From: Desulfomonile tiedjei DSM 6799
GTDB taxonomy: Bacteria; Desulfobacterota; Desulfomonilia; Desulfomonilales; Desulfomonilaceae
DNA length: 64,000 nt
Direction of reading: 5' to 3'
Assembly (NCBI RefSeq): GCF_000266945.1
Contig: NC_018025.1
Location: forward strand, 930,001 to 994,000
Shown here: positions 1,501-17,904 of the stretch, in pieces
Layout: every line of letters starts with the position of its first letter
Position numbering within the stretch: the first letter of the stretch is position 1
Translations under genes and position numbers: made by a program
Notes under the pieces: model-generated
What the model saw: the letters and a program-made list of their open reading frames with translations, nothing else
What the model was told of the DNA's origin: nothing
Databases searched by the model: none

Positions 1501-3252
1501 TTATCTCTCCGTCCACATCTGCTCTAGACACTTGCGGAAATTATCGGCAAAGCGTTTTGCGTCCATAAGAGGTGACTGAGACACTTTTTGTCGCATGGAG
1601 TGCCTGATCTTGGATAGTTTATCCAGGTCGGAAGCCAGTTGGATAGCCTTGTGAATATAGCCTTCAATGTCATGCGCAACAAGATCTTCGTGTCCTGAGT
1701 TGATTATGTGACTCGCGGAATGCCTGTGACAGAAGCGGTCTCCTGTAAAGGTTACTACCGGAACTCCCATCCACAAACTGTCACACGTGGTTGTGCCTCC
1801 TGCAAAGGGAAAGGTGTCCAGGGCAATGTCTACATCGTTATACGTGCGGAGATAATCGTGGAACGTTGTCTTGGGAAGCAAATCCATACGATCGCGTGAA
1901 ATGCCTAATGAAGACAGTTTTTCTGCGAAGCTGTCTCGGATAGTTGCATCGTTCAAAGCTTTTCCCCTCATGACGAGCCTTGATCTCGGGAGTTGGCCCA
2001 AAATTTCGGCCCATGTTTCAAGTGCTTTATCCGAGATTTTCGCAAGTTGATTGAATGAACAGAAAGTAACGAACCCGCGGCTCAGAGCGGGGAGGGGACC
2101 CACGTTTGGAGCAGGCGGCACTTCGTAACAAAGGAAACCATCAGGCATGCGGACGATTTTCTCAGTATAGAGGTGCTCATGCTCGGGGGGCACGCAAATT
2201 CTGTCAGCAATCAAATAATCCATACAGTCCAGACCGGTGGTGTTGAAGTATCCCATCCAGCTTGCCTGAACCGGTGCAGGTTTGCGTGCGAAAACCAAAA
2301 GTCTGTTATGCCCTGTGTGACCTGACAGATCGATCAGTATGTCTATCCGGTCTCGCTGGATTCCCTGGGCCAGTTCAGGATCTGTCAGGCCGGCCGTGTC
2401 TCGCCATTGGTCGCTTTGAGACCGCAACCAATCCGTCCTCCTATCCGGAGCAACCACATCCGAATAGCAGACTGCTTCCCAGGATTGCCGATTTCTCGCT
2501 CGGAATAGGGGAGAGAGAAATCGACCCACCGGGTGCTCCTGAAAGTCGAATGAGACGAAGCCCACGCGCAGAGGCTTTTTCGTAACGTCTCGCGGCGGGT
2601 GTCGAACAATTTCCCCGGATAGTGGTAACGCATGTTGTTTGTTCCAGGCTCGATGTTCTGCAGCCATTTCTTCCGCAGTATACTGAGGGCTGAAATTCAT
2701 ATTAAAGAGCACGTTGGAATGGGCCATGATAAAGTGAGGATTTAGTTCAACGGCTTTGCGGTAACAACGGATCGACTCTTCGACCCTGCACTGGGCAAGG
2801 TGGACGCCGCCAATGTTGTTCAATGCATTGGCATTGTCCGGATTAATCTTCAGCGCCATTTCAAGCAGCTCTTTTGCCTGGTCGTATCGTTCCCTCTTGG
2901 AATAGATGTGTCCAAGATTGTCGTGAGCCAAGTCGTGATTAGGATCGATCTCGATGGCTTTTTTCAGCACCATAACCGCTTCATCGACGAGACCGATCTG
3001 GTTCAAAGCGTTTCCCAGATTCGACAGCACCGATGCGTTCTTCGGCTCGTACGTCAAAGCGTGCTTGTACAGGCCGATGGCGTCGATATGTCTGCCTCGT
3101 TGCCTGAGAAGCGCACCAAGATTCATGAGAGCAGCCACAAACCTGGGATTTCTTCTGAGTATGCTGCGGTAGATGTTTTCCGCCCTGTTGAGATCGCCTG
3201 CTCTGTGAAATGATGTTGCCTCGTCAAACGCTTTTTCCAACAAATTTTGCAT
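1501..3252 (-). CDS. TPR-containing SPINDLY/OGT-type glycosyltransferase (GT41)
   Basis: A 583-residue cytoplasmic protein. Residues 1 to about 190 form five tandem 34-residue tetratricopeptide repeats (for example NLGNALNQIGLVDEAVMVLK). The rest matches the O-GlcNAc-transferase/SPINDLY catalytic fold: PLRVGFVSFDFQEHPVG near residue 225, DLSGHTGHNRL near 310, WMGYFNTTG, SFNQLAKISD, and the sugar-nucleotide-binding GGTTTCDSLWMGVP near 485. The family transfers GlcNAc, fucose or related sugars to Ser/Thr of proteins. The gene starts 13 nt after the stop of the NHLP-type peptide gene, and its ribosome site (AGGACAGGAAA) overlaps that stop region, so the two should be translationally coupled. This makes the small peptide the obvious candidate substrate (inference). 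The donor sugar is unknown. Confidence 0.9.
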   Translation of the reverse strand: MQNLLEKAFDEATSFHRAGDLNRAENIYRSILRRNPRFVAALMNLGALLRQRGRHIDAIGLYKHALTYEPKNASVLSNLGNALNQIGLVDEAVMVLKKAIEIDPNHDLAHDNLGHIYSKRERYDQAKELLEMALKINPDNANALNNIGGVHLAQCRVEESIRCYRKAVELNPHFIMAHSNVLFNMNFSPQYTAEEMAAEHRAWNKQHALPLSGEIVRHPPRDVTKKPLRVGFVSFDFQEHPVGRFLSPLFRARNRQSWEAVCYSDVVAPDRRTDWLRSQSDQWRDTAGLTDPELAQGIQRDRIDILIDLSGHTGHNRLLVFARKPAPVQASWMGYFNTTGLDCMDYLIADRICVPPEHEHLYTEKIVRMPDGFLCYEVPPAPNVGPLPALSRGFVTFCSFNQLAKISDKALETWAEILGQLPRSRLVMRGKALNDATIRDSFAEKLSSLGISRDRMDLLPKTTFHDYLRTYNDVDIALDTFPFAGGTTTCDSLWMGVPVVTFTGDRFCHRHSASHIINSGHEDLVAHDIEGYIHKAIQLASDLDKLSKIRHSMRQKVSQSPLMDAKRFADNFRKCLEQMWTER

Positions 3253-3265
3253 TGAGTTTCCTGTC

Positions 3266-3532
3266 CTACCGCAGATAGAATTGCCATGCCGCCTGGAGGT
3301 GTCCCACGTCTTCCTTGCCGAACTCAGCCGAATTCGGAGGAAGCGGAAGCGTTATATAAATCAATTCTTTCGTGTTTTCAACTATCTTTACCTCTATATC
3401 TTCAGGAACTCTGATACCATGTTCCTTCAACACGGCATCTGTTTCCAGAAGGAGACGTTGTTTGAATGCCTCGTCCGACCACGCCTTTGCCACAATTTTT
3501 CCGAATGTCATCTGAAACTTGGTTCTGTCCAT
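3266..3532 (-). CDS. NHLP-type (nitrile hydratase alpha-like) modified-peptide precursor
   Basis: An 88-residue protein resembling the nitrile-hydratase-like leader peptides of proteusin-class RiPP precursors: KIVAKAWSDEAFKQRLL (residues 12-28), then HGIRVPEDIEVKIVENT (38-54) and the hydrophobic strand ELIYITLPLPP. It is far too short for a real nitrile hydratase alpha subunit and lacks that enzyme's Cys metal site. There is no Gly-Gly cleavage site. The tail after the leader-like part is about 21 residues, NSAEFGKEDVGHLQAAWQFYLR minus its last residue, with one Ser (S68), one Trp and one Tyr as conspicuous modifiable residues. It lies first in a two-gene operon with the GT41 enzyme. The ATG has no recognisable ribosome site because a dispersed repeat ends a few bases upstream. 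An internal ATG at 3511 is possible but no better. Family resemblance is confident; being a modified peptide is inference. Confidence 0.75.
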   Translation of the reverse strand: MDRTKFQMTFGKIVAKAWSDEAFKQRLLLETDAVLKEHGIRVPEDIEVKIVENTKELIYITLPLPPNSAEFGKEDVGHLQAAWQFYLR

Positions 3533-3534
3533 AT

Positions 3535-3720
3535 TATAGTCAGTGCCAAAAATTCTGTCGTTTATCCCTCGTGTGAATTACAGGATATTGGTAGGGATCG
3601 GCGTCCCTGCCGGTCCATTCTATTGATATCATTGATCATATTTAAGATGTGCCGGCACGGAGGCACGGCACCTACCAATCTTCCTAATCTTCAATCGGTC
3701 ACTAATTTTGGCAACTGATA
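3535..3720. repeat. MITE-like palindromic element, copy A
   Basis: About 186 bp with imperfect terminal inverted repeats: TCAGTGCCAAAAATT at 3540-3554 and AATTTTGGCAACTGA at 3704-3718. The interior has a REP doublet, CGGCGTCCCTGCCGG near 3600 and CCGGCACGGAGGCACGGC near 3651, flanked by GGTAGG and CCTACC. A near-identical copy in the opposite orientation lies at 29169-29350. The left edge almost touches the start codon of the NHLP peptide gene. It has no coding capacity of its own. Confidence 0.8.
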
Positions 3721-4953: not shown

Positions 4954-7900
4954 TTATGACACCAAATCATTGTCTTCAAGCGGGTTGGTGTTCGCAACGA
5001 TAGTGTCGGTCCCACCGCCACTGATTATGGCGTCCTGAGAACCATCAGGGTTAGCGTTGTCGTCTGCTCCGTGGTAAATGGTCTCGCTGCCGGCTCCTCC
5101 TGTTATGGAATCAGCGCCCAGACCGCCGTAAAGCACGTTAGAGTAGGCGTTCCCATACATCGTATCGTTCCCGTCGCCACCGTTCAGGGTATTGTCACTG
5201 GCAGAGGTCAATCCCATGTGAAGATCCAATCTGTCATCCCCGGCATCACCGTTGACAGCGTTATACTGAGCTGACTCAGTCACATACAGAGTGTCGTTGC
5301 CTGTTCCCGCGTTGACCGTGTTATGGTGCGTAGAGCCCTTGACGTATATCTGCTCGCTGCCCTCACCGCCGTCGAACACGTTATGATGTGAATTCAGTTG
5401 CATGTCCAAGCGGTCGTCACCGCCTTCACCGTTCATGGTGTTTCCGTTTGAAGTCCCAGCCGCAGTGAAGGTGTCTTTTTCAGTGCCACCACCTGTACCG
5501 TCGTGGCCGTTTAGGATGTTGTTATACGCAGAGCCGTCCAGTCCAAGGCTATCCTGGCCACCTTCGCCGTTCAGGGTATTGCCGTGCGCATTGCCATAAG
5601 CGCTGAGCTGGTCTGTTTCGGTGCCGCCGCCAGTGCCGTCGTGCCCGTTGAGCAGGTTATTATACGCATCTCCGTAGACTCGGATCGCGTCACCGCCCTC
5701 ATTGCCGTTCAGGGTGTTGCCGGTCGCACTCTCATACGCATACAGGTAGTCGGAACCGTCGTTGCCGACACTGAATGCGTCATCACCATTGAGCACGTTG
5801 TTGGAGGCAATGCCATAGACATGCATCTCGTCTGCGCCTCCGCCTCCGTTCAGAGTGTTCCCTTGGGCGCTCCCATAAGCATGCAGGTAGTCCACGTCGG
5901 ACCCTTCAGTTGAGCCGTCCTGCCCGTTGAGCACGTTTTCCGACGCGGTTCCATAGACTTCCAGCCGGTCCTCGCCGTCGCCTCCATTCAGCGTGTTCCT
6001 CGTTGCAGCGTCATATACGTACAGGAGGTCGTTGCCTGCCCCGCCGTTGAGGACGTTATTCAACGCAGACTCGTGAGCAAACAGAGAATCTGCGCCGCCC
6101 TCACCATTCAGGGTGTTTCCTGTCGCACTGCCATACACATACAGCTCGTCAGCGTCAGTTCCGCCGCCTGAGCCGTCATGGCCGTTGAGCACATTATTGG
6201 ACGCAGTATCGTAAGCATTCAGGCGATCGGCCCCGGCATCACCGTTGAGAGTGTTCCCTGTGGCAGTGCCGCCGGCATACAGGAAGTCGTTGCCGTCGCC
6301 GCCTGAGAGTGTGTTCCCTGAACCTGTACCTGCCACATAGAGGGTATCATCGTCCTCTTCGCCATAGGCCTGGCCGCCGGAACTCTCAAGCGTGATCACG
6401 TCATTGCCTGCGCCGCCGTACAGCGTGTCTATGCCTTCACCGCCGTACATGGTGTCGGCTCCGCCATTGCCGTACACAAGGTCATTGCCTGCACCACCGC
6501 TCAGCTCGTCTGCGGACGAGTCGCTGCCGGTGATGGTATCGTTGCCGTCTCCGCCGTTCAGGGTGTTGGACAGCGTGCTGGTGGAGGTCAGGGTGTCGTC
6601 GCCAGCATCGCCGTTCAGCGTGTTGCCTGTGGCATTCTCGTAGGCATACAGGCTGTCGTTATCGTCACCGCCGTTCAGCACGTTATTCGCCACATTCCCA
6701 TAGAGATACACAGTGTCGCTGCCTGCGCCGCCGTTAAAGGTGTTGTCATGGGAATCCCTGTCAAATCTCAGGGTATCGTTCCCGTCACCGCCGTTTATCA
6801 CGTTGTTGTACGGGCATGTGGTGTATCCTGGAGAGTACTCTCCATTGGTCTCAAAGTAATCGTCACCTGCATCGCCATTGAAGGTGTTGTCGTGAGTCGG
6901 CTGGTTGCTAGACTGGCTATACTTGATATTGAAAGTGTCATTTCCGTCACCCCCGTTAAACACGTTGTACCCTCCATCCATGAGAGTTTGTGCCACGAGC
7001 GTGTCAGCTCCGTCATCGCCGTTAAAGGTGTTGTCATGGGTGTAACTGTTGGCTTTCAGCGTGTCGTCCCCGTCGCCGCCGTTAAGTACGTTGCCCCACG
7101 AGGTCGTTTGCGTCAGGAGGTAGTCGTTGCCGCCTTCGCCGTAAATCGTGTTTCCTGTGGCATCCCGTATGACATTCACGTAGTCGTCTCCATCGCCGCA
7201 GTAGACAACGTTGTTCGATGGAGCATCACCGAAGTCGCCTGTGAAGCGCACGTCGTCATCGCCGGCTGTACCGTAAATCGTATTGCCTGACGCCTTGCCC
7301 TCAAACACATAGTATTCGGCATCGGTCCCGGTGAGTGAGCCGTCATCCCCGTAGCAGATGTTGCCCGTGGCATTGTCCGTCAGGTAAAAGTCGTCGTACG
7401 AGTCGCCTCCGTAGAGGGTGTTCCCAGTGGCGTTGTCATAGACGTAAAAATCGTCGTTTGCGCCGCCTCCGTAGATGATGTTCCCTGTGGCAGTGCCCCG
7501 GACATAGATTTCATCTGCGAGGTCGCCTCCATAGACGGTGTTGGCAGAACCGGTTATCTCCCACCAACCACCGCGGGTTTCGCCGTATGCCACAGCGCCT
7601 GTGCTCTGGAGATAGACGTAATCGTAACCAAGACCGCCATAAAGGGTATCTGTGCCCTCATCCGACACCAGGGTGTCGTCGCCGTCGCCGCCCTGCAAAA
7701 GGTCATTGCCTGCACCGCCGATGAGGTAGTTGCCTCCGGTGCTGGTTGAGGTTATGGTCTCGTCGCCTTCACCGCCGTTCAGGGTGTTATTGTGGGAGCT
7801 TCCTTCGGCCAGCAGGGTGTCCACATCGTCGCCGCCGTTCAGCACGTTGCTGTCCGCGGTACCGTAGGCGCGCAGGGTGTCGCTGCCGCCGTCGCCGTTC

Positions 7901-10900
7901 AGGGTGTTGGCGTAATCGGTTGCATCGGCCTCGGCCAGCAGAGTGTCTTCGCCATCGCCGCCGTTGAGCACGTTCATGTTTGCGAACTCGTAAGCGTGCA
8001 GGGTGTCGTTGCCGGCCTCGCCGTTCAGGGTGTTAAACGCAGTGTACCCGTAAGCCAGCAGGGTATCGTTTCCGTCACCGCCGTTGAGCACGTTCAAACC
8101 GGAGGCTTCGTAGGCTTCAAGGGTATCGTCGCCGCCTTCACCGTTCAGCGTGTTGTTGGTCGCCATGTCGTAACACGTGAAATGATCGGCGTCAGTCCCG
8201 CCACCTGAACCGTCATGACCGTAGAGCACGTTGTTCACGGCATTGCCAAAGCAGTTGAGGGAATCATTGCCATCCCCGCCGTATACGACGTTCTGGTGGG
8301 CCTTCCAACGAAGCAGGAAACTATCGTTGCCGCCTTCACCGTACAAGGTGTTCTCATAGTTATTGCTAACCTCATGGTAGAAAACGAACTGGTCGTCGCC
8401 CCCGTCGCCTGTGCCGTTATCCCCGTACACCACGTTGTGATGCGCATTATACAAAAATGCGAGGCGATCGTTCCCGTCCCCGCCATAAATCGTGTTGTGA
8501 TGGGCATTTAAGGTCAAGCCGATTTGGTCGTTTCCACCTTCTCCGTACACGGTGTTTCCTGTTGACTCGTCTCCCAAGCTCGCGTCGTCCTCGCCCTCGC
8601 CCCCGTAAAACACGTTTCCTGTTGCAGTGCCAACGGCCCAGAGTATGTCTGCCCCTGCGGAACCGTACAACGTGTTGCCTGTAGCATTGTCATAAGCATA
8701 GAGGTCATTCCAACTTGTCTCGCTACCTGTGCTGTTATAGCCATAGAGCACATTGTAGGATGCAGACTCCATGGCGAACAGGAAGTCCTCGAACCCGGCG
8801 TCCCCATTGAGCGTGTTGTGGTGAGCACTGCCCTGCGCCCTCAGATCGTCGTTGTCGTCGCCGCCGTTAAGCACATTGTAGTTGGCGAAATTCCTAGCGT
8901 ATAAGTAATCGTCGCCCGCGCTCCCGTTGAGTGTGTTGCCTGTGGCACTGTCGCGCGCGTACAGGTAGTCTTTAGCCCCATCCCCGTTCAAGACGTTGCC
9001 TGTAGCGTTGTCGTACGCATACAGGTAGTCGCTGCCGTCTCCTCCGTAGAGCGTATTTCCGGATGCCGAGCCCCTCACGTTGAGGTTTTCAACGCCCGTA
9101 TTCGGCCCGCCATAGGCTTCGCCGCCCGTGCCCCAAAGGGTGAGATCGTCGTCGCCTTCGCCACCATAGAGTGTATCCGTGCCCTCACCGCCATCTATAG
9201 TGTCGTTACCGCCATTGCCGTAGATAAGGTCATTACCTGCACCACCGAGGAGCGCTGTGTCTCCTATCAGGTCGCTGCCGTTGATGGTATCGTTGCCTTC
9301 TCCGCCGTTAAGGGTGTTGACGAAGAGGCTGGTTGACGTGAGGGTGTCATCGCCTGCATCACCGTTCAGGGTGTTGCCTGTAGCGCTCTCAGAGGCCAGC
9401 AGGGTGTCGTTGTCATTGCCGCCATTGAGCACGTTGTTCGAAGCTGTTTCGAAGACACGCAGAGTATCGATGCCGTCGTCAGCATTGAGCGTATTCCCTG
9501 TCGCACTGCCATAGGCGTAGAAGTCGTCATCTCCTTCATTGCCGTTCAGCACGTTACCAGACGCACTGTTGTGGACTTCCATCCGATCTGCGCCTGCTTC
9601 ACCGCTCAGGGTGTTGCCTGTCGCACTGGCGTAAACATACATCGAGTCGTTGTCGTCGCCGCCGTACATAGCGTTGTTGGAGGCATTCCCGACAACTAGA
9701 CACACATCTGCACCGGCGTCACCGTAAGCCGTGTTACCTGTAGCAGTGTCCATCATCTGGATCTGATCGTTCCCGTCATTGCCGTGCAGCACGTTGTTGT
9801 AAGCACCGTTGAGAGCATTCAGGTAATCCGTGCCGCCGTCACCGTACAGCTCATTGAGGTTAGCGGAGTCGTCCACTTCCAGAGTATCGGTCCCTTCGTC
9901 ACCATGAAGGGTGTTTCCTGTTGCGGTGGACCAGGCATACAGCTCGTCGTTCCCGTCATTGCCGTTGAGCACGTTGTCATATGCAGAGTCGCCGACGTCC
10001 AGATAATCGTCTCCGCCGTCACCGTTGAGCGTATTGTTGTGAGCACTGCCACCGGCAAACAGGGCGTCCGCATCAGTTCCGCCGCCCGATCCGTCATATC
10101 CGTTCAGCACATTGCCTGACGCATCTCCGTAGACCTCCATATGATCTTCGCCGCTGTTACCGTTGAGGGTGTTGCCTGTAGCATTCTCAAAAGCATGCAG
10201 TAAGTCATCGCCGTCACCGCCGTTGACCACGTTGTTGGAGGCATTGCCGCGGACACGCGCAAAGTCGTTGCCTGCCTCGCCGTTAAGCGTGTTGCCTGTA
10301 GCGCTGTCATAGGCAAACATGTAGTCGCCGGTGTCGCCTCCGTTCAGCACGTTGTTGGACGCAGTGCCATAGACGTACATCTGGTCTTCGCCGGTGTCAC
10401 CGTCGAGCGTATTGCCTGTAGCACTATCGTAGGCGCACATGAGGTCGTCGCCAGTCCCGCCGTTGAGTGCGTTGTTCGCTGCGCTGCCGTACACGTTAAG
10501 CACGTCGTTGCCGCCTTCACCGTTGAGCGTATTGCCTGAGGCGTTGTCATATGCGTTCAGCTCGTCCGCTTCGGGTCCACCGCCAGAGCCGTTATAGCCG
10601 TTCAGCACGTTGCCGGATGCAGATCCGTAGGCCTCCAGTAGATCCGTGCCGTCTTCACCGAAGAGGGTGTTCCCTGTCGCCGTGCCATAGACGTACAGGA
10701 AATCGTCGCCCACGTCAGCGGCAAGCATGTTGCCTGTCGCACTGTCGTAAGCATACAGGGAGTCGTTGCCCGCGAGGCCAAAGAGCGTGTTGTTGGATGC
10801 ATTCCCGTACACTCGAAGCTCATCGTTGCCACCGCCTCCAATGAGCGTGTTGCCGGTGGCACTGTCATATACGTACAGGCGATCCGTGTCAGTGCCGCCG

Positions 10901-13900
10901 ACTGTGGTGTCGTAACCGAAGAGCACGTTATTGGATGCAGAGCCATAGGCTTCCAGGGTATCGCTGCCCCCGTTGCCGCTCAGGGTATTGCCTGAGGCTG
11001 TGCCCCCTACATAGAGGCGATCGTCTCCGTCATCGCCGTAGGCTTCACCGCCTGTGCCTGTCAGCGTGAGCGTATCGTTGCCCGCTCCACCGTAGATGGT
11101 ATCTGTGCCGTCACCGCCCTCGATGGTGTCATCTCCGCCGTTGCCGTACACAAGGTCATTGCCTGCTCCGCCGACGAGCGAGTCTCCGGATGAGTCGCTG
11201 CCGGTGATGGTGTCGTTGCCTTCTCCGCCGTCAAGGGTGTTGGAGGCTGTGCTGGTGGAGGTCAGCGTATCGTCACCCGCGTCACCGTTGAGGGTGTTGC
11301 CTGTGGCATTGTCTTGAACGTCCAGCGTGTCATTGTCGGCACCAGCGTTGAGAATGTTTCCTGTGGCACTGTCATAAGCAAACATGTTGTCGGCGCCGTC
11401 TCCGCCGTTCAAGACGTTGTTGGAAGCGGAGTCCATGGCCCCTATGGAATCGTTACCGCCATCACCGTTGAGCGTGTTGCGTGTTGCATTTTCGTAGAGA
11501 TACATACGGTCGGCTTCAGTTCCGCCGCCCAAACCGTCATGACCGTTCAACACGTTATCCGACGCAGACCCTTCCACATAGAGTAGGTCTTCGCCGGCGT
11601 TACCGTTGAGCGTGTTGCCTGCCGCATTGTCGCCGGCAGACATAGAATCGTCGTTATCTCCGCCGTTGAGCAGGTTGTTCGAGGCAGAGCCTTGGGCATA
11701 CAGCTCGTCCTCACCGGCGTCACCGTTGAGGGTGTTGTCTTGGGCTGAACCTCGTGCATACAGATAATCGATGTCATCGCCTCCGTTGAGCACGTTGTTG
11801 GCCGCATAGTCTTCGGAACACAGTAAGTCGTTGCCACTACCGCCGTTGAGAATGTTGCCTTCGGCGGTGTCATAGGCACGCATGTAATCGCCGCCGCCGT
11901 CACCGTTTAGCGTGTTGCCTGTGGCACTGTCAAAAGCGTACATGCAGTCTATCTCAGTCCCACCGCCTTGACCGTCGTATCCGTTGAGCACGTTATTCCA
12001 CGCAGACTCGTACGCATCAAGGTAGTCGGTACCGGCGTTACCGTTTAGCGTGTTGCCTGTGGCGCTGCCATGCGCAAAGAGATCATCTTCGCCATCGCCT
12101 CCGTTGAGCACGTTGTTGGATGCAGATCCGTTGGCATGCAGCTCGTCGTGGTCGCCGTCACCGTTGAGTGTGTTGCCTGTTGTGGTATCAGAAGCAAACA
12201 AGTGGTCTGCGCCGTCGCCTCCTGAGAGCGTGTTACCTGAAGCTGCTCCCACTACGTAGAGCCGATCGTCACCCGCATCGCCGTAGGCCTGGCCGACCGT
12301 ACCCGAAAGGGTGAGAGTATCGTTGCCGGCCCCACCGTAGATCGTATCTACGCCATTACCGCCCTCGATGGTGTCGTCTCCTCCATTGCCGTAGATAACG
12401 TCATCGTTCTGGCCGCCAACGAGCATAAGAGCGCTTTCGCTTACGAGGTCGCTGCCATTGATGGTGTCGTTGCCTTCTCCGCCGTCAAGGGTGTTGGCAG
12501 CTGTGCTGGTTGAGGTCAGGGTATCGTCCCCCGCGTCACCGTACAGCGTGTTCCCTGTTGCACTGCCGGAAGCCAGCAGGGTGTCGTTGCCGGCATCACC
12601 GTGCAACATGTTGTTGGCAGCGGAGCCGCCGGCTTCCAGGGTGTCGTTGCCGCCATCGCCGTGAAGCGTGTTGCCTGTCGCTGTCTCAGAAGCATACAGG
12701 TAGTCGGTTTCAGTCTCGCCGCCCAGGCCGTCATGGCCGTTTAGCACGTTGTCTTGGGCAGTCCCGTAAGCTCGAAGCGTGTCTGTGCCATCACTGCCGT
12801 TAAGTACGTTGTCGTGCGCAGAGCCATAGACTTCCAGGGTATCGTCACCACCCTCGCCGTTGAGCGTGTTGCCTGTTGCACTCTCATAGGCATACAGCGA
12901 GTCATTGTCATCTCCGCCGTCAAGCAGGTTGTCTTCGGCATTCCCGTAGACTCGAAGCGTATCCAGGCCAGCACTGCCGTTGACGGTGTTGCCTGTCGCA
13001 CTGTCACAGACATACATCCAGTCATCGCCGTCGCCGCCGTTAAGCACGTTGTTCGATGCGGAGTCCAACACCCAAATGCCGTCGTCACCGCCGTCACCGT
13101 TGATTGTGTTGCCGTTAGCATTGTCTTCGACGTAGAAGCGGTCCCATTCGGTGCCTCCACCTGATCCGTCGTGACCATTGAGCACGTTGTTGGACGCAGC
13201 GATGTAGACATACAGTTCGTCTTCGCCGCCGTTACCGCTTAGCGTGTTGCCGGTCGCATTGTTGTAAGCATACAGGTAGTCGTGGTCGTCACCGCCGTTT
13301 AATACGTTGCTATACGCAGATCCGTACACATCCAGGCGATCTTGGCCGGCATTACCGTTGGCCGTGTTGCCGTTTGCACTGTCATAAACATACGCCTCGT
13401 CGTTGCCTTCACCACCGTTGAGCACGTTGTTCGACGCATTTCCGAGGACTTCAAGGTGGTCTTCGCCGCTGTCGCCGTTCAGTGTGTTATTGTGCGCTGA
13501 CCCGCTGGCATACATCCGGTCATTGCCGCCGCCGCCATTAAGAACGTTGCCTGTCGAGTCGCCGACGGCATACAGGTTGTCATTCCCGCCCTCACCATTG
13601 AGGGTGTTTCCTGTACCGGTCTGATACACATTCAGATGGTCTATGTCGGTTCCGCCACCTGAACCGTCAAAGCCGTTGAGCACGTTATTCGACGCAGTGC
13701 CGTACACGTTCAGGATATCGTTTCCCGCTCCACCGTTGAGTGTGTTACCTGTGGCGGTATCCTGGGCATACAGGTGGTCGGCTCCGTCGCCACCGTACAG
13801 CGTATTGCCCGTCGCTGTGCCTGCAGCATAGAGCTCGTCGTCGCCAGATTCACCATGCGCCTGGCCCCCTGTGCCCGTGAGCGTGAGACTGTCGTTGCCC

Positions 13901-16900
13901 GCGCCACCGTACAGCGTGTCTGTGCCATCGCCGCCAACAATGGTGTCATCTCCACCGTTGCCGTATACAAGGTCATTGCCTGTGCCGCCGAAGAGCGTGT
14001 CTCCGGACGAATCACTGCCGTTGATGGTGTCGTTTCCGTCACCACCGTGCAGGACGTTGGGAAGCGTGCTGGTCGAGGTCAGGGTATCGTCTCCTGCCCC
14101 ACCGTTGAGCGTGTTGCCCGCAGCATTTTCGGAAGCACGTAGCTCGTCCGCACCGTCATTGCCGTTGAGCACATTGTTGGCCGCAGATCCCTGGGCTTCG
14201 AGGTAATCGTCACCGTTATTGCCATTCAGCACGTTGTTTGATGCAGTATTGGAGACCAGCAGGTTGTCGTCTCCGCCGTCACCGTTCAGAGTGTTGTACG
14301 ACGCGGTGTTACCGGCATAGAGATTGTCTGCATCAGTGCCGCCGCCTGTGCCGTCATGCCCGTTGAGCACGTTATGGTGCGCGGAGTGGTACACGAATAC
14401 GTTATCGCTGCCACCACCACCATTGAGCGTGTTGCCGGTAGCACTATCATAGGCAAACAGTTCATCGTTACCATCGTCACCGTTGAGCACGTTATTTGAC
14501 GCGGAGCCGGACACTTGCAGACGATCTCCTCCGGTACCGGCGTTGAGCGTGTTGCCGGTAGCATTGTCGTAGATATAGAAGGCGTCAGGTCCGTCCTGCC
14601 CATTGACCACATTGTTTGACGCAGAGCCGTAAATTTCCAGGCGATCTCCGCCACCACCACCATTAAGCGTATTGCCGGTCGCGTTGTCACACGCAAACAT
14701 CTGATCCGCGTCAGTGCCTCCGCCGGAGCCGTCATGCCCGTTGAGCACGTTATTTGACGCAGAGCCGTACGCGGCCATCTGGTCGGCCCCGCCGTCACCA
14801 TTAAGGGTGTTATTCGCTGCATTATCGTAAGCAAGCAAGTAGTCGTTATCAGTCGCGTCACCACCACCCAGGCCGTCGTAACCGTTGAGCACGTTATGGT
14901 GCGCAGAGCCGTAGACTTTGAGCATGTCGAGCATGCCCCCCCCGCCGTTGAGGGTGTTGTACTGAGCGTCTTCGTAGGCATCCAGCGCGTCCATCTCGCT
15001 TTCACCATTGAGTGTGTTGCCTGTCGCAGTCCCATATGCCTGCAGAATGTCGTTACCATCACCGGCATTGAGCACGTTATTCGCCGCAGAACCGTAAACG
15101 TGCATGGTGTCGGCTCCGGCTTCACCATTGAGCGTGTTGCCGGTGGCAGTCTGATATGCACGCAGGCTGTCGTCACCTTCACCGGCATTGAGTACGTTAT
15201 TCGACGCGCTCTCGTAGGCATACAAATAGTCATTTCCGGCTTCACCGTTGAGGGTGTTGCCTGTGGCATTTCCAAAAGCCTCCAGGTAGTCATCGCCGTC
15301 ATTGCCGTTGAGTACGTTGTTCGACGCTGTTCCGCGGATGCGCAAGAAATCGCCGCCACCGCCGCCGTTCAGGGTGTTACCGGTCCCGCTGTCGAAGACA
15401 TACATTTGATCCATGTCAGTACCGCCAAGTGAACTGTCATGGCCGTTGAGCACGTTATTCGACGCGTTGTCGTTGACGTACATATAGTCAGTGCCGTCAT
15501 CACCGTTGAGTGTATTGCCCGTAGCTGTTCCGGCTACATACAAGTAATCGTTGCCTGCTCCACCGTGGGCTTCGCCGCCTGAACCCAGAAGCGTAAGTTC
15601 ATCGCTGCCTTCTCCACCGTAGAGCGTGTCTCGGCCATCTCCGCCTTCCATGATGTCGTTTCCGCCGTTGCCGTAGACAAGGTCATCACCTGCGCCGCCG
15701 AAGAGGATGTCTTGTGACGAGTCACTGCCGTTGATGGTGTCGTTGCCATCACCGCCGTCGAGGGTGTTTATGCCTGAGCTGGTGGAGGTCAGGGTATCGT
15801 TGCCCGCGTCACCGTTGAGTGTATTGTCTGAAGCGGTGTCGGAGGCCAGTATTGTATCGTTATCATTTCCGCCATTGAGCACGTTGTTCGAGGCCGTGCC
15901 CGACACCTGCAGCGTGTCGGTCCCGTCACCGCCGTAGAGCGTATTCCCGGAGCCGGTTCCGCTAACAGTCAGGGTATCGTTTCCACCCTCTCCATATACC
16001 TTATTATTGGTCCCGACGATTGAGACGGTATCGTTGCCATCACCCGCGTAGACGATGTACTGATGTGTGGTGCTCAATGCATCTATAATGTCGTCACCGG
16101 TGGTGCCGTAGATAATTTCATTCCTATCCTGCGCGCTATAACTGGTGCTCTGCATGTGCACAACCCAATAGCCCACGCTGTCCACGATCCGGTAGTTCAC
16201 GTTCATGTCGATGGTATCGGTATCGGTCAGATTCGTTCCCGATCCGGTGTGCCCGAGATCGTCAGTTATGATCTGAATACTGGATTCACCGGCGAAACCG
16301 GCATCAGGCGTGTACGTGAGCCCTTCAAGGGCGGCGTTAATGTCAGCCTGCGACCCGATGATGGTCACTGTTCCCGTGCCATCTCCCGTAATAGTGAGAC
16401 CGATGGGAGTCGATCCCAGCGTGAGAATCCCATTCCCCGCAGTCAGCGTTACCTGAACTGAATCGGTTCCCGCGTCCGGATCGAAAACGGAGATCTGATT
16501 CCCGTAGGCAGTTCCGAAGACGAGTGTTCCTTCGAATGTCTGTGTTGTGGGAACCGTGTTCAGAGGAGCGTTATTCTCCCCGTGGACTGTTAGAGTGAAC
16601 GTCTGAAATGTTGAATACTGGCCGTCACTGGCAATTACCTGAACTTGTACCGAGCCATAAGAATTGAGTGCGCTGGTGAAGCTCACAACACCCGTGGTTG
16701 AGTTGATGCTCAAGTCCGCAAGCGCGAGTCCTCCATAATATGTGATGGTCCCGAGACTGTAATTGAGGACACTGTCAATATCAGTGAAATACGAGTGCAC
16801 ATCGTACTCGTAGATTCCGAAATTCTGGTTAAGCGCAGCAGGATCGGGGATAGGGTCGGATACAGGCGCATCGTTGACCGGCGTAACGGTTATCTGAATC

Positions 16901-17904
16901 GATTCCGAGAGGGACTGAGCGCCACCGGAACCGGTATTCCCAAGATCGTTCACGGTAATGGATAGTACGTCGGAACTGCAGAAGTTGCTATCGGGGCTGT
17001 AGAGAATATTCTGCAGCGCTGTGTTGAGCTGGCTCCAGGTTCCCTGGAAGATCATCTCTTGCGTACCATTTCCGGAGAGATAGGTGAGTCCGGAAACATC
17101 GGAAAGCGTCAATACACCGTGATCGACGGAGAGCGTTATTTGAAGAGGATTGCTTCCTGCATCTACGTCATACACGTAAATCCAGGGGATCGTGAGATCG
17201 GAGTCTTCGTCGACTGTTTGTGCGCCAGGTAGAACGGCTGTCGGAGCGTCATTTACGTAAGAAGAGGTATGTTGCTGGATATAGTGAAAATCGTTGCCCC
17301 AGACGTACTCGCTTGAATTCCAATCGTTGTACACCCAGACGCCGAAGCTATCCAAAAACCATGTCTGATAGGGCTCCCATACGCCATCGTTGACTACATC
17401 GAACCATTCCAACGCACCGCTCGCATGCTGCTGAGAGAAATCGTGGAAATCGTCCCAATAATAGCGGCTCATGCCCGTATGATTCCAAACCCAACACCCA
17501 TCGGTGTAATCGTAGAACCAGGTGAATGCAGGCTCCCACTGATAATCGGCCATGTCATCGTACCAATACCAGGTGCCTGTGTTAGTGTCTTCCATGAAGA
17601 GCTCATGGTCGCCGTGGTACCATTCGCAGATTCCGTTATCTCCGGGACAGCACCACCACCCGGTATTCTCATTCCAGTACCATCCACTGGACTCCTGCCA
17701 CCACCAGCCCGAACCGGAATCATCGTACCACCAGCCGTTATCGACGTAGACCCAACCAAGGGAATCCGCCTGATCCGCCTGTGGATCCTGCACATCATCA
17801 GTATCGGTGACAGCTCCATCAAGCACGATTCTGTCTTCGAGCTGCTCAAGCATCAACTCTCGCGACCCGGACAACCATGTCCCGAATATCGCATTTGATT
17901 TCAT
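4954..17904 (-). CDS. Giant RTX-like secreted repeat protein (4316 aa)
   Basis: A single uninterrupted 12.95-kb gene encoding a probable secreted or surface adhesin/matrix protein. The ATG has a strong AAGGAGAGG site. There is no classical signal peptide. The N terminus carries LEQLEDRIVLDGA (about residues 19-31), the LE-x-R-x-L-type signature seen at the start of many large secreted repeat proteins. Residues about 49-205 are extraordinarily Trp/Tyr/Asp-rich (about 24 Trp). Residues about 215-570 hold three cadherin/Big-like modules ending in VNDAP or ENNAP linkers. From about residue 600 to the end runs a calcium-binding-like beta-roll of about 20-residue units (form: GNTLNGxxGxDxLxxYxxAS) punctuated by canonical RTX nonapeptide islands. 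The C terminus ends EDNDLVS, acidic-then-hydrophobic with a hydroxyl residue, compatible with a type I secretion signal; no secretion genes are in the window. Regulation may involve the structured leader at 18012-18115. Function beyond surface or matrix is unknown. Confidence 0.93.
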   Translation of the reverse strand: MKSNAIFGTWLSGSRELMLEQLEDRIVLDGAVTDTDDVQDPQADQADSLGWVYVDNGWWYDDSGSGWWWQESSGWYWNENTGWWCCPGDNGICEWYHGDHELFMEDTNTGTWYWYDDMADYQWEPAFTWFYDYTDGCWVWNHTGMSRYYWDDFHDFSQQHASGALEWFDVVNDGVWEPYQTWFLDSFGVWVYNDWNSSEYVWGNDFHYIQQHTSSYVNDAPTAVLPGAQTVDEDSDLTIPWIYVYDVDAGSNPLQITLSVDHGVLTLSDVSGLTYLSGNGTQEMIFQGTWSQLNTALQNILYSPDSNFCSSDVLSITVNDLGNTGSGGAQSLSESIQITVTPVNDAPVSDPIPDPAALNQNFGIYEYDVHSYFTDIDSVLNYSLGTITYYGGLALADLSINSTTGVVSFTSALNSYGSVQVQVIASDGQYSTFQTFTLTVHGENNAPLNTVPTTQTFEGTLVFGTAYGNQISVFDPDAGTDSVQVTLTAGNGILTLGSTPIGLTITGDGTGTVTIIGSQADINAALEGLTYTPDAGFAGESSIQIITDDLGHTGSGTNLTDTDTIDMNVNYRIVDSVGYWVVHMQSTSYSAQDRNEIIYGTTGDDIIDALSTTHQYIVYAGDGNDTVSIVGTNNKVYGEGGNDTLTVSGTGSGNTLYGGDGTDTLQVSGTASNNVLNGGNDNDTILASDTASDNTLNGDAGNDTLTSTSSGINTLDGGDGNDTINGSDSSQDILFGGAGDDLVYGNGGNDIMEGGDGRDTLYGGEGSDELTLLGSGGEAHGGAGNDYLYVAGTATGNTLNGDDGTDYMYVNDNASNNVLNGHDSSLGGTDMDQMYVFDSGTGNTLNGGGGGDFLRIRGTASNNVLNGNDGDDYLEAFGNATGNTLNGEAGNDYLYAYESASNNVLNAGEGDDSLRAYQTATGNTLNGEAGADTMHVYGSAANNVLNAGDGNDILQAYGTATGNTLNGESEMDALDAYEDAQYNTLNGGGGMLDMLKVYGSAHHNVLNGYDGLGGGDATDNDYLLAYDNAANNTLNGDGGADQMAAYGSASNNVLNGHDGSGGGTDADQMFACDNATGNTLNGGGGGDRLEIYGSASNNVVNGQDGPDAFYIYDNATGNTLNAGTGGDRLQVSGSASNNVLNGDDGNDELFAYDSATGNTLNGGGGSDNVFVYHSAHHNVLNGHDGTGGGTDADNLYAGNTASYNTLNGDGGDDNLLVSNTASNNVLNGNNGDDYLEAQGSAANNVLNGNDGADELRASENAAGNTLNGGAGDDTLTSTSTLPNVLHGGDGNDTINGSDSSGDTLFGGTGNDLVYGNGGDDTIVGGDGTDTLYGGAGNDSLTLTGTGGQAHGESGDDELYAAGTATGNTLYGGDGADHLYAQDTATGNTLNGGAGNDILNVYGTASNNVLNGFDGSGGGTDIDHLNVYQTGTGNTLNGEGGNDNLYAVGDSTGNVLNGGGGNDRMYASGSAHNNTLNGDSGEDHLEVLGNASNNVLNGGEGNDEAYVYDSANGNTANGNAGQDRLDVYGSAYSNVLNGGDDHDYLYAYNNATGNTLSGNGGEDELYVYIAASNNVLNGHDGSGGGTEWDRFYVEDNANGNTINGDGGDDGIWVLDSASNNVLNGGDGDDWMYVCDSATGNTVNGSAGLDTLRVYGNAEDNLLDGGDDNDSLYAYESATGNTLNGEGGDDTLEVYGSAHDNVLNGSDGTDTLRAYGTAQDNVLNGHDGLGGETETDYLYASETATGNTLHGDGGNDTLEAGGSAANNMLHGDAGNDTLLASGSATGNTLYGDAGDDTLTSTSTAANTLDGGEGNDTINGSDLVSESALMLVGGQNDDVIYGNGGDDTIEGGNGVDTIYGGAGNDTLTLSGTVGQAYGDAGDDRLYVVGAASGNTLSGGDGADHLFASDTTTGNTLNGDGDHDELHANGSASNNVLNGGDGEDDLFAHGSATGNTLNGNAGTDYLDAYESAWNNVLNGYDGQGGGTEIDCMYAFDSATGNTLNGDGGGDYMRAYDTAEGNILNGGSGNDLLCSEDYAANNVLNGGDDIDYLYARGSAQDNTLNGDAGEDELYAQGSASNNLLNGGDNDDSMSAGDNAAGNTLNGNAGEDLLYVEGSASDNVLNGHDGLGGGTEADRMYLYENATRNTLNGDGGNDSIGAMDSASNNVLNGGDGADNMFAYDSATGNILNAGADNDTLDVQDNATGNTLNGDAGDDTLTSTSTASNTLDGGEGNDTITGSDSSGDSLVGGAGNDLVYGNGGDDTIEGGDGTDTIYGGAGNDTLTLTGTGGEAYGDDGDDRLYVGGTASGNTLSGNGGSDTLEAYGSASNNVLFGYDTTVGGTDTDRLYVYDSATGNTLIGGGGNDELRVYGNASNNTLFGLAGNDSLYAYDSATGNMLAADVGDDFLYVYGTATGNTLFGEDGTDLLEAYGSASGNVLNGYNGSGGGPEADELNAYDNASGNTLNGEGGNDVLNVYGSAANNALNGGTGDDLMCAYDSATGNTLDGDTGEDQMYVYGTASNNVLNGGDTGDYMFAYDSATGNTLNGEAGNDFARVRGNASNNVVNGGDGDDLLHAFENATGNTLNGNSGEDHMEVYGDASGNVLNGYDGSGGGTDADALFAGGSAHNNTLNGDGGDDYLDVGDSAYDNVLNGNDGNDELYAWSTATGNTLHGDEGTDTLEVDDSANLNELYGDGGTDYLNALNGAYNNVLHGNDGNDQIQMMDTATGNTAYGDAGADVCLVVGNASNNAMYGGDDNDSMYVYASATGNTLSGEAGADRMEVHNSASGNVLNGNEGDDDFYAYGSATGNTLNADDGIDTLRVFETASNNVLNGGNDNDTLLASESATGNTLNGDAGDDTLTSTSLFVNTLNGGEGNDTINGSDLIGDTALLGGAGNDLIYGNGGNDTIDGGEGTDTLYGGEGDDDLTLWGTGGEAYGGPNTGVENLNVRGSASGNTLYGGDGSDYLYAYDNATGNVLNGDGAKDYLYARDSATGNTLNGSAGDDYLYARNFANYNVLNGGDDNDDLRAQGSAHHNTLNGDAGFEDFLFAMESASYNVLYGYNSTGSETSWNDLYAYDNATGNTLYGSAGADILWAVGTATGNVFYGGEGEDDASLGDESTGNTVYGEGGNDQIGLTLNAHHNTIYGGDGNDRLAFLYNAHHNVVYGDNGTGDGGDDQFVFYHEVSNNYENTLYGEGGNDSFLLRWKAHQNVVYGGDGNDSLNCFGNAVNNVLYGHDGSGGGTDADHFTCYDMATNNTLNGEGGDDTLEAYEASGLNVLNGGDGNDTLLAYGYTAFNTLNGEAGNDTLHAYEFANMNVLNGGDGEDTLLAEADATDYANTLNGDGGSDTLRAYGTADSNVLNGGDDVDTLLAEGSSHNNTLNGGEGDETITSTSTGGNYLIGGAGNDLLQGGDGDDTLVSDEGTDTLYGGLGYDYVYLQSTGAVAYGETRGGWWEITGSANTVYGGDLADEIYVRGTATGNIIYGGGANDDFYVYDNATGNTLYGGDSYDDFYLTDNATGNICYGDDGSLTGTDAEYYVFEGKASGNTIYGTAGDDDVRFTGDFGDAPSNNVVYCGDGDDYVNVIRDATGNTIYGEGGNDYLLTQTTSWGNVLNGGDGDDTLKANSYTHDNTFNGDDGADTLVAQTLMDGGYNVFNGGDGNDTFNIKYSQSSNQPTHDNTFNGDAGDDYFETNGEYSPGYTTCPYNNVINGGDGNDTLRFDRDSHDNTFNGGAGSDTVYLYGNVANNVLNGGDDNDSLYAYENATGNTLNGDAGDDTLTSTSTLSNTLNGGDGNDTITGSDSSADELSGGAGNDLVYGNGGADTMYGGEGIDTLYGGAGNDVITLESSGGQAYGEEDDDTLYVAGTGSGNTLSGGDGNDFLYAGGTATGNTLNGDAGADRLNAYDTASNNVLNGHDGSGGGTDADELYVYGSATGNTLNGEGGADSLFAHESALNNVLNGGAGNDLLYVYDAATRNTLNGGDGEDRLEVYGTASENVLNGQDGSTEGSDVDYLHAYGSAQGNTLNGGGGADEMHVYGIASNNVLNGDDAFSVGNDGSDYLYAYESATGNTLNGNEGGDAIRVYGDAYNNLLNGHDGTGGGTETDQLSAYGNAHGNTLNGEGGQDSLGLDGSAYNNILNGHDGTGGGTEKDTFTAAGTSNGNTMNGEGGDDRLDMQLNSHHNVFDGGEGSEQIYVKGSTHHNTVNAGTGNDTLYVTESAQYNAVNGDAGDDRLDLHMGLTSASDNTLNGGDGNDTMYGNAYSNVLYGGLGADSITGGAGSETIYHGADDNANPDGSQDAIISGGGTDTIVANTNPLEDNDLVS
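4990..16110 (-). repeat. 60-bp tandem repeat array with RTX nonapeptide islands
   Basis: The coding DNA has a 60-bp period (20-residue unit) with occasional 78-bp units that insert a GSGGGTDAD-like loop. Alternate units start GNTLNG and NNVLNG. Seven islands of nonapeptide (GGxGxDxLx) repeats interrupt the array at about 15565-15790, 13850-14075, 12275-12515, 11030-11260, 9105-9340, 7585-7755 (degenerate) and 6360-6595. Each is marked by the phrase LTSTS, followed by GNDTI-GSDSS and LVYGNGG-type sequence. Island-to-island spacing is 1.2-1.9 kb, so the gene is organised as unequal super-repeats. Units are diverged in codon usage, so this is not a recent pure amplification. Confidence 0.9.

Follow-up and report, generated by a model that had tools for sequence, protein, structure and literature searches.

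The window analysed here is a stretch of 64,000 nucleotides (positions 930001–994000) of the 6.53-Mb, two-contig genome of Desulfomonile tiedjei DSM 6799. Within it, a gene for a small peptide of the NHLP type and a gene for a glycosyltransferase of the GT41 family follow one another closely, and a repeat abuts the start of the first. In window coordinates, the features are as follows.

3534..3714: 181-bp repeat abutting the peptide start codon; a second copy at 29352-29174 is 92% identical (blastn of the window against itself)
3533..3561, minus strand: promoter-like ACGACA-N17-TATAAT, ending immediately before the peptide ATG (only a 10/12 match to the consensus, which is no proof of a promoter)
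3532->3266, minus strand: NHLP-type (proteusin-leader-like) protein, 88 aa (open reading frame with TIGR03793, PF02979, AlphaFold and Foldseek)
3253..3265, minus strand: intergenic gap of 13 nt, CGG TAG GACAGGAAACTCA ATG, containing AGGAAA, which resembles a Shine-Dalgarno site of the glycosyltransferase gene (read from the sequence)
3252->1501, minus strand: TPR + GT41 enzyme, SPINDLY-like, 583 aa (open reading frame with PF13844, phmmer, model and Foldseek)

The sizes, order and spacing of these two reading frames, with the peptide 13 nt ahead of the enzyme, are as the initial annotation had given them, and we add the strand, which it had left unstated. It had also described the ribosome site of the enzyme as overlapping the stop region of the peptide gene; a Shine-Dalgarno-like site is indeed present, but it sits just after the stop codon and not inside it. 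Both genes are real, tightly spaced in operon-like order, and probably co-transcribed. In addition, the 6.5-Mb genome contains exactly one TIGR03793 locus above the cut-off, which is the 88-residue peptide, and exactly one PF13844 locus, which is the 583-residue enzyme next to it. Within this genome, the combination of single copies, adjacency and operon-like order is suggestive of a pairing beyond chance.

The identity of the peptide as an NHLP protein is supported by its profile score and by its predicted fold, and the leader type proposed for it at the outset holds. Specifically, it scores 66.2 bits against TIGR03793 (leader_NHLP; E=1.8e-18, cut-off 50.9) and 41.7 bits against PF02979 (nitrile hydratase alpha), and among solved chains its matches comprise both nitrile hydratases and 8tb1, an NHLP precursor. 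An AlphaFold model of moderate confidence (mean pLDDT 68.5, about 85 in the helical core and <50 in the tail) predicts helices at residues 3-19, 21-29 and 31-37, strands at 49-53 and 58-61 and a last helix at 73-85, which is the a1-a2-a3-b1-b2-a4 layout published for proteusin precursors (PMC10858898). A Foldseek search with this model returns 8tb1 first (E=3.4e-5, TMq 0.58) and 9cjx second (E=0.066). When compared with the tabulated family motifs (PMC2887384, Table 3), motif 1 is present at about residues 12-29 (KIVAKAWSDEAFKQRLL / IVAKAWSDEAFKQRLLL, for a family consensus of IKKAWSDEEFKQALLNN); the peptide contains no Cys, and the CxxCSC metal site of the nitrile hydratases is lost. The profile score, motif 1, the missing CxxCSC and the predicted fold are all features shared with the NHLP/proteusin precursors of TIGR03793, including MprE7 (8tb1) and DprE2 (9cjx).

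The C-terminal end of the peptide differs from these precursors. Residues 70-82 (EFGKEDVGHLQAA) align ungapped, by eye, to motif 2 (ELSDEELEAVAGG), although in degenerate form, with Ala-Ala for Gly-Gly and with F71 and V76 for the LX4L leucines. This alignment leaves only residues 83-88, WQFYLR, as a possible core, and this putative core is without Ser, Thr, Cys or Asn. Thiazole/oxazole or lanthionine chemistry on the peptide is ruled out by this composition (no Cys, Ser or Thr). Two of the three residues that had been named as a short tail, W83 and Y86, do lie within the six residues after the motif-2 region; the other, S68, lies in a Pro-rich linker upstream of motif 2 and is therefore part of the leader. 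The locus also departs from those of known precursors in that no YcaO, LanM or radical-SAM neighbour is recognised.

Judged from leader ends elsewhere in the phylum, Ala-Ala alone is no sign of decay, because several Desulfobacterota NHLPs share it, ending in ...RLAA or ...RMAA, including those of genome G128 that lie beside a YcaO gene; their cores, however, are longer than WQFYLR and mostly contain Cys. Nearly coreless NHLPs occur as well, one in G117 (L017:23-277, ending ...RIAAEPFF) and one in G056 (L005:1480-1725, ending ...RLAAVI), the latter adjoining a radical-SAM gene. In G353, two NHLP-like proteins have motif 2 replaced by unusual C-termini, GGAWLCGDDSYDAPCIRCN at L032, where no enzyme was recognised nearby, and RGPWMCEDDAYDLPCAGCD at L019, which adjoins a YcaO gene.

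Sequence and model alike show the enzyme to be a SPINDLY-like member of GT41 that is intact. It scores 191.9 bits against PF13844 (cut-off 25) and consists of about 5 TPRs at residues 2-184 and a whole catalytic domain at about 190-583; the model displays about five TPR helix pairs, in agreement with the five repeats and the GT41 assignment of the initial annotation. Its best match by phmmer among solved chains is Arabidopsis SPINDLY (SPY; 7y4i, E=1.3e-130, full length), with Thermobaculum terrenum OGT and human OGT behind. The model (pLDDT 94, pTM 0.90) superimposes on SPY (7y4i, 8dti) with TMq 0.90-0.93 and about 35% identity over the whole chain, the TPR superhelix and GT41 domain being common to both, although the enzyme has fewer TPRs; the bacterial TPR/GT41 architecture of T. 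terrenum OGT (5djs) is likewise shared, at 36% identity. K405 corresponds to SPY K665, which is essential, its loss abolishing SPY activity (PMC9715652), and is invariant among 24 GT41s. Other SPY residues are also kept (N661 as N401, D491 as D236, H495 as H240), T487 aligns with the nucleotide-sugar residue T748, and where SPY 495-496 is H-S the enzyme has H-P, with the P found in many of the relatives here.

A further difference from SPY is F483, which occupies the position of Y744, where the side chain is proposed to determine how large a donor the pocket admits; its equivalents are F517 in ApHMW1C, a UDP-glucose user, and Cys in human OGT (PMC9715652). With Phe at this position, as in ApHMW1C, we would expect the donor, if the enzyme is active, to be a hexose or deoxyhexose rather than GlcNAc; as to GDP-fucose use, F483 suggests a small donor pocket only. 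In a maximum-likelihood tree of catalytic domains, the enzyme lies on a long branch and groups with one GT41 from G353 and one from Azospirillum (91/86 support). Within its wider clade, a TPR-GT41 gene of G420 (Methylocapsa; L165:7560-11212) adjoins a flagellin gene, near fliF, and its product is a candidate flagellin glycosyltransferase.

The immediate surroundings of the pair carry several repeats. The 181-bp repeat ends one base before the peptide ATG and carries the promoter-like site, and because this lies directly upstream the pair may now be driven by a repeat-borne promoter. On inspection, there is no clear Shine-Dalgarno sequence before the peptide ATG, and residue 1 and Met8 are both candidate translation starts. 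The repeat resembles a small mobile element. Between 3590 and 4880, palindromes of the GCCGGCACGGAGGCCGGC type form a dense, REP-like array, and an IS200/Y1-type transposase gene (4745-4290) is embedded in this array in a REP/RAYT-like arrangement; units resembling those of the array recur at about 33.3, 35.4 and 50.8 kb.

Among the reading frames around the pair, inspection together with Pfam searches of four nearby stretches brought up no RiPP enzyme, protease or exporter, in line with the earlier remark that a protease/exporter pair is missing nearby. At the scale of the genome, no NHLM exporter reaches the cut-off of TIGR03796, the profile used for this search; the best match, with 470.1 against the required 853.3 bits, is a C39-ABC transporter at 4.10 Mb, beside an RTX protein.

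It is informative to examine the pair in light of the distribution of the two families, particularly as conserved co-occurrence in related genomes was the test that the initial annotation had set for its own interpretation. In our partial sample of about 1,200 genomes (a single genome for each species, for the most part from Desulfobacterota and Pseudomonadota, with cyanobacteria and other NHLP-rich groups represented by plasmids only), the NHLP-GT41 pairing is not conserved, and D. tiedjei is the only genome with the pair on one contig. Specifically, among 60 relatives an NHLP occurs in 2 and a GT41 in 3, and both occur in the D. tiedjei genome only. Across 395 Desulfobacterota genomes, NHLPs (E<=1e-5) are found in 15 and GT41s in 35, and the four genomes with both (G000, which is D. 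tiedjei, and G117, G353 and G405) have them on one contig only in G000. In G117 the NHLP gene lies at a contig edge, its upstream side unseen, and is followed by no GT41; in G353 the upstream side of the GT41 gene is cut by a contig end, and downstream lies a large TPR/glycosyltransferase/methyltransferase gene, named by sequence inspection only. Five of the 15 alphaproteobacterial genomes with strong NHLPs have a GT41, always on another contig.

Approached from the enzyme, the result is the same. The NHLP profile, run on 46 GT41 neighbourhoods other than that of D. tiedjei (mostly reaching about 9 kb to either side, and in some cases truncated where the contig stops), gave a best E of 0.63, as against 2e-30 at the D. 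tiedjei locus, so that an NHLP neighbour was found in 0/46 of these. GT41 is likewise absent from the other NHLP neighbourhoods read in the phylum, several of which have YcaO (G128, G353, G313) or radical-SAM (G056) enzymes. Relatives of the peptide came from a single locus in GTDB contigs, a nitrile hydratase alpha chain, and none came from IMG/VR or the phage collection; plasmids of Nostoc, Azospirillum and Thiodictyon carry NHLPs with no GT41 near them; and among 398 Pseudomonadota genomes drawn no NHLP passed E<=1e-12, which is not proof of absence. A glycosyltransferase linked to its precursor across several genomes, by which a glycosylated RiPP would be known, was not found in the genomes sampled, and a search of the available literature turned up no NHLP/proteusin-OGT pairing.

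What, then, might the two genes do together? The reading that we place first, with a probability of roughly 0.36, is that the GT41 enzyme modifies the NHLP protein. The locus would then be a two-gene operon peculiar to this lineage, its first gene encoding a folded NHLP protein and its second the SPINDLY-like GT41 that acts on this protein. The TPR superhelix, which holds the protein substrate in SPY and OGT, would grip the NHLP by its helical bundle or by its flexible C-terminal part, leaving the catalytic domain to add one hexose or deoxyhexose in a disordered part, at S68 or N67 in the linker or at Y86 in the six-residue tail; that the two proteins interact, that the peptide is modified, and with which sugar and where, are all inferred. 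With no dedicated exporter predicted, the product may remain intracellular. Consistent with this reading are the shared strand, the 13-nt gap with its Shine-Dalgarno-like site, and the adjacency of the sole NHLP and sole GT41 of the genome. NHLP genes typically adjoin their modifying enzyme, as the YcaO and radical-SAM neighbours in the phylum illustrate, and no such enzyme is seen among the reading frames around this locus; the GT41 appears intact in both its fold and the residues K405, N401, D236 and H240; and the flagellin gene beside the GT41 of G420 suggests that such enzymes can adjoin a dedicated substrate.

Against the substrate reading stand the lack of conservation in the sample, a six-residue core without Ser, Thr, Cys or Asn, and the replacement by F/V and Ala-Ala of the LX4L leucines and Gly-Gly that known NHLP enzymes and exporters use, as well as the missing NHLM exporter and the mobile-looking repeat that abuts a peptide ATG lacking a clear ribosome site. 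The initial annotation had proposed a possible glycosylated RiPP system with a single O-glycosylation at S68. Its observation of the gene pair is confirmed, and its interpretation is partly supported. The two genes may form a new glycosylated peptide system, yet three observations weaken the case: the pair is not conserved in the sample, the core lacks Ser and Thr, and S68 sits in the leader. Glycosylation at S68 in particular is weakly motivated, because S68 belongs to the leader and WQFYLR offers neither Ser nor Thr. The stronger proposition, in which a SPINDLY-like GT41 is the only modifying enzyme that the folded, proteusin-type leader recruits, so that a TPR/GT41 protein glycosyltransferase matures a new class of ribosomal glycopeptides, we consider rather unlikely.

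Level with the substrate reading is the view that the two genes are unrelated neighbours. The peptide would then be an orphan NHLP leader with a worn-down core, left from a YcaO (thiazole/oxazole) or radical-SAM cluster, the GT41 would have its substrate elsewhere in the cell (among surface or flagellar proteins, or in the RTX giant encoded upstream), and the tight spacing would have arisen by deletion or insertion of mobile repeats. The lack of a conserved pair, the degenerate cleavage region and the tiny core all fit such a history, as does the repeat directly upstream together with the REP-like array and its IS200-type transposase; moreover, both families are rare in the family (2 and 3 of the 60 relatives) and patchy in the phylum, and GT41 relatives adjoin unrelated genes, namely the TPR/glycosyltransferase/methyltransferase giant of G353 and the flagellin of G420. 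Nonetheless, the body of the NHLP (residues 1-65) shows good preservation, neither frame is broken, a 13-nt spacing with its own Shine-Dalgarno-like site resembles a working operon, and it would be the only NHLP and the only GT41 of the genome that had come to lie side by side.

It is also worth considering that the NHLP is no precursor at all and instead serves as an adaptor or regulator, its helical bundle binding the TPR groove and steering or inhibiting the GT41 towards other substrates. Folded NHLP leaders bind enzymes through a tertiary surface (PMC12455567), the peptide is a nearly coreless leader whose helical core, and not its tail, is modelled with fair confidence, and other coreless NHLPs exist in G117 and G056. 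However, no GT41 known here has a separate small partner, and the coreless NHLP of G056 adjoins a radical-SAM gene, as a precursor would, so that we regard this role as improbable. Less probable still is maturation in trans, in which WQFYLR would be a true short core for an unlinked radical-SAM or Trp/Tyr tailoring enzyme and the GT41 would act late or be unrelated. NHLP precursors can sit far from their modification genes (PMC2887384), the core keeps a Trp and a Tyr, and a brominase is known whose target is a C-terminal Trp in an NHLP precursor (PMC10858898); on the other side, the missing Cys, Ser and Thr exclude thiazole/oxazole and lanthionine chemistry, and there is neither a Gly-Gly site nor a matched exporter.

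Were the GT41 to modify the NHLP protein, the consequences would extend beyond this locus. The glycocins are S- or O-glycosylated bacteriocins with Cys/Ser cores and double-Gly leaders, modified by GT2-type enzymes of the SunS/ThuS type. The D. tiedjei pair would share with them the arrangement of a ribosomal peptide whose glycosylating enzyme is encoded next to it, whereas the Cys/Ser core, the double-Gly leader and the GT2-type enzyme are all absent. A folded NHLP leader would be readable by a TPR/GT41 protein glycosyltransferase, linking the proteusin natural products with the field of OGT/SPINDLY protein glycosylation and offering a compact pair for putting a sugar on a leader-tagged peptide. 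A bacterial SPINDLY-like enzyme would also gain a defined substrate, of interest when set beside XcOGT and TtOGT, for which clear evidence of a native substrate or of GlcNAc activity is reported to be lacking (PMC9715652). If the reading is false, the locus is reduced to an ordinary GT41 gene with an orphan RiPP leader next to it.

Beyond the palindrome array, positions 4954-17904 of the minus strand encode a 4316-aa RTX-repeat protein that starts with LEQLEDRIVLDG and is built from a great many similar NVLNG/NTLNG units; downstream of its stop codon lies a strong terminator-like hairpin. We do not favour this protein as the GT41 substrate, given this hairpin and given that RTX-repeat proteins lie near only 2/46 of the other GT41 loci. 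Likewise, the C39-ABC transporter at 4.10 Mb was set aside as an exporter of the peptide on account of its score (470 against a cut-off of 853) and its RTX neighbour, and looks like part of a type I secretion system. The stretch in question (L130; contig 1, 4089000-4108000) encodes a second RTX giant of >2890 aa, followed by the C39-type ABC transporter and an HlyD-like gene, and together these genes constitute a probable type I secretion system.
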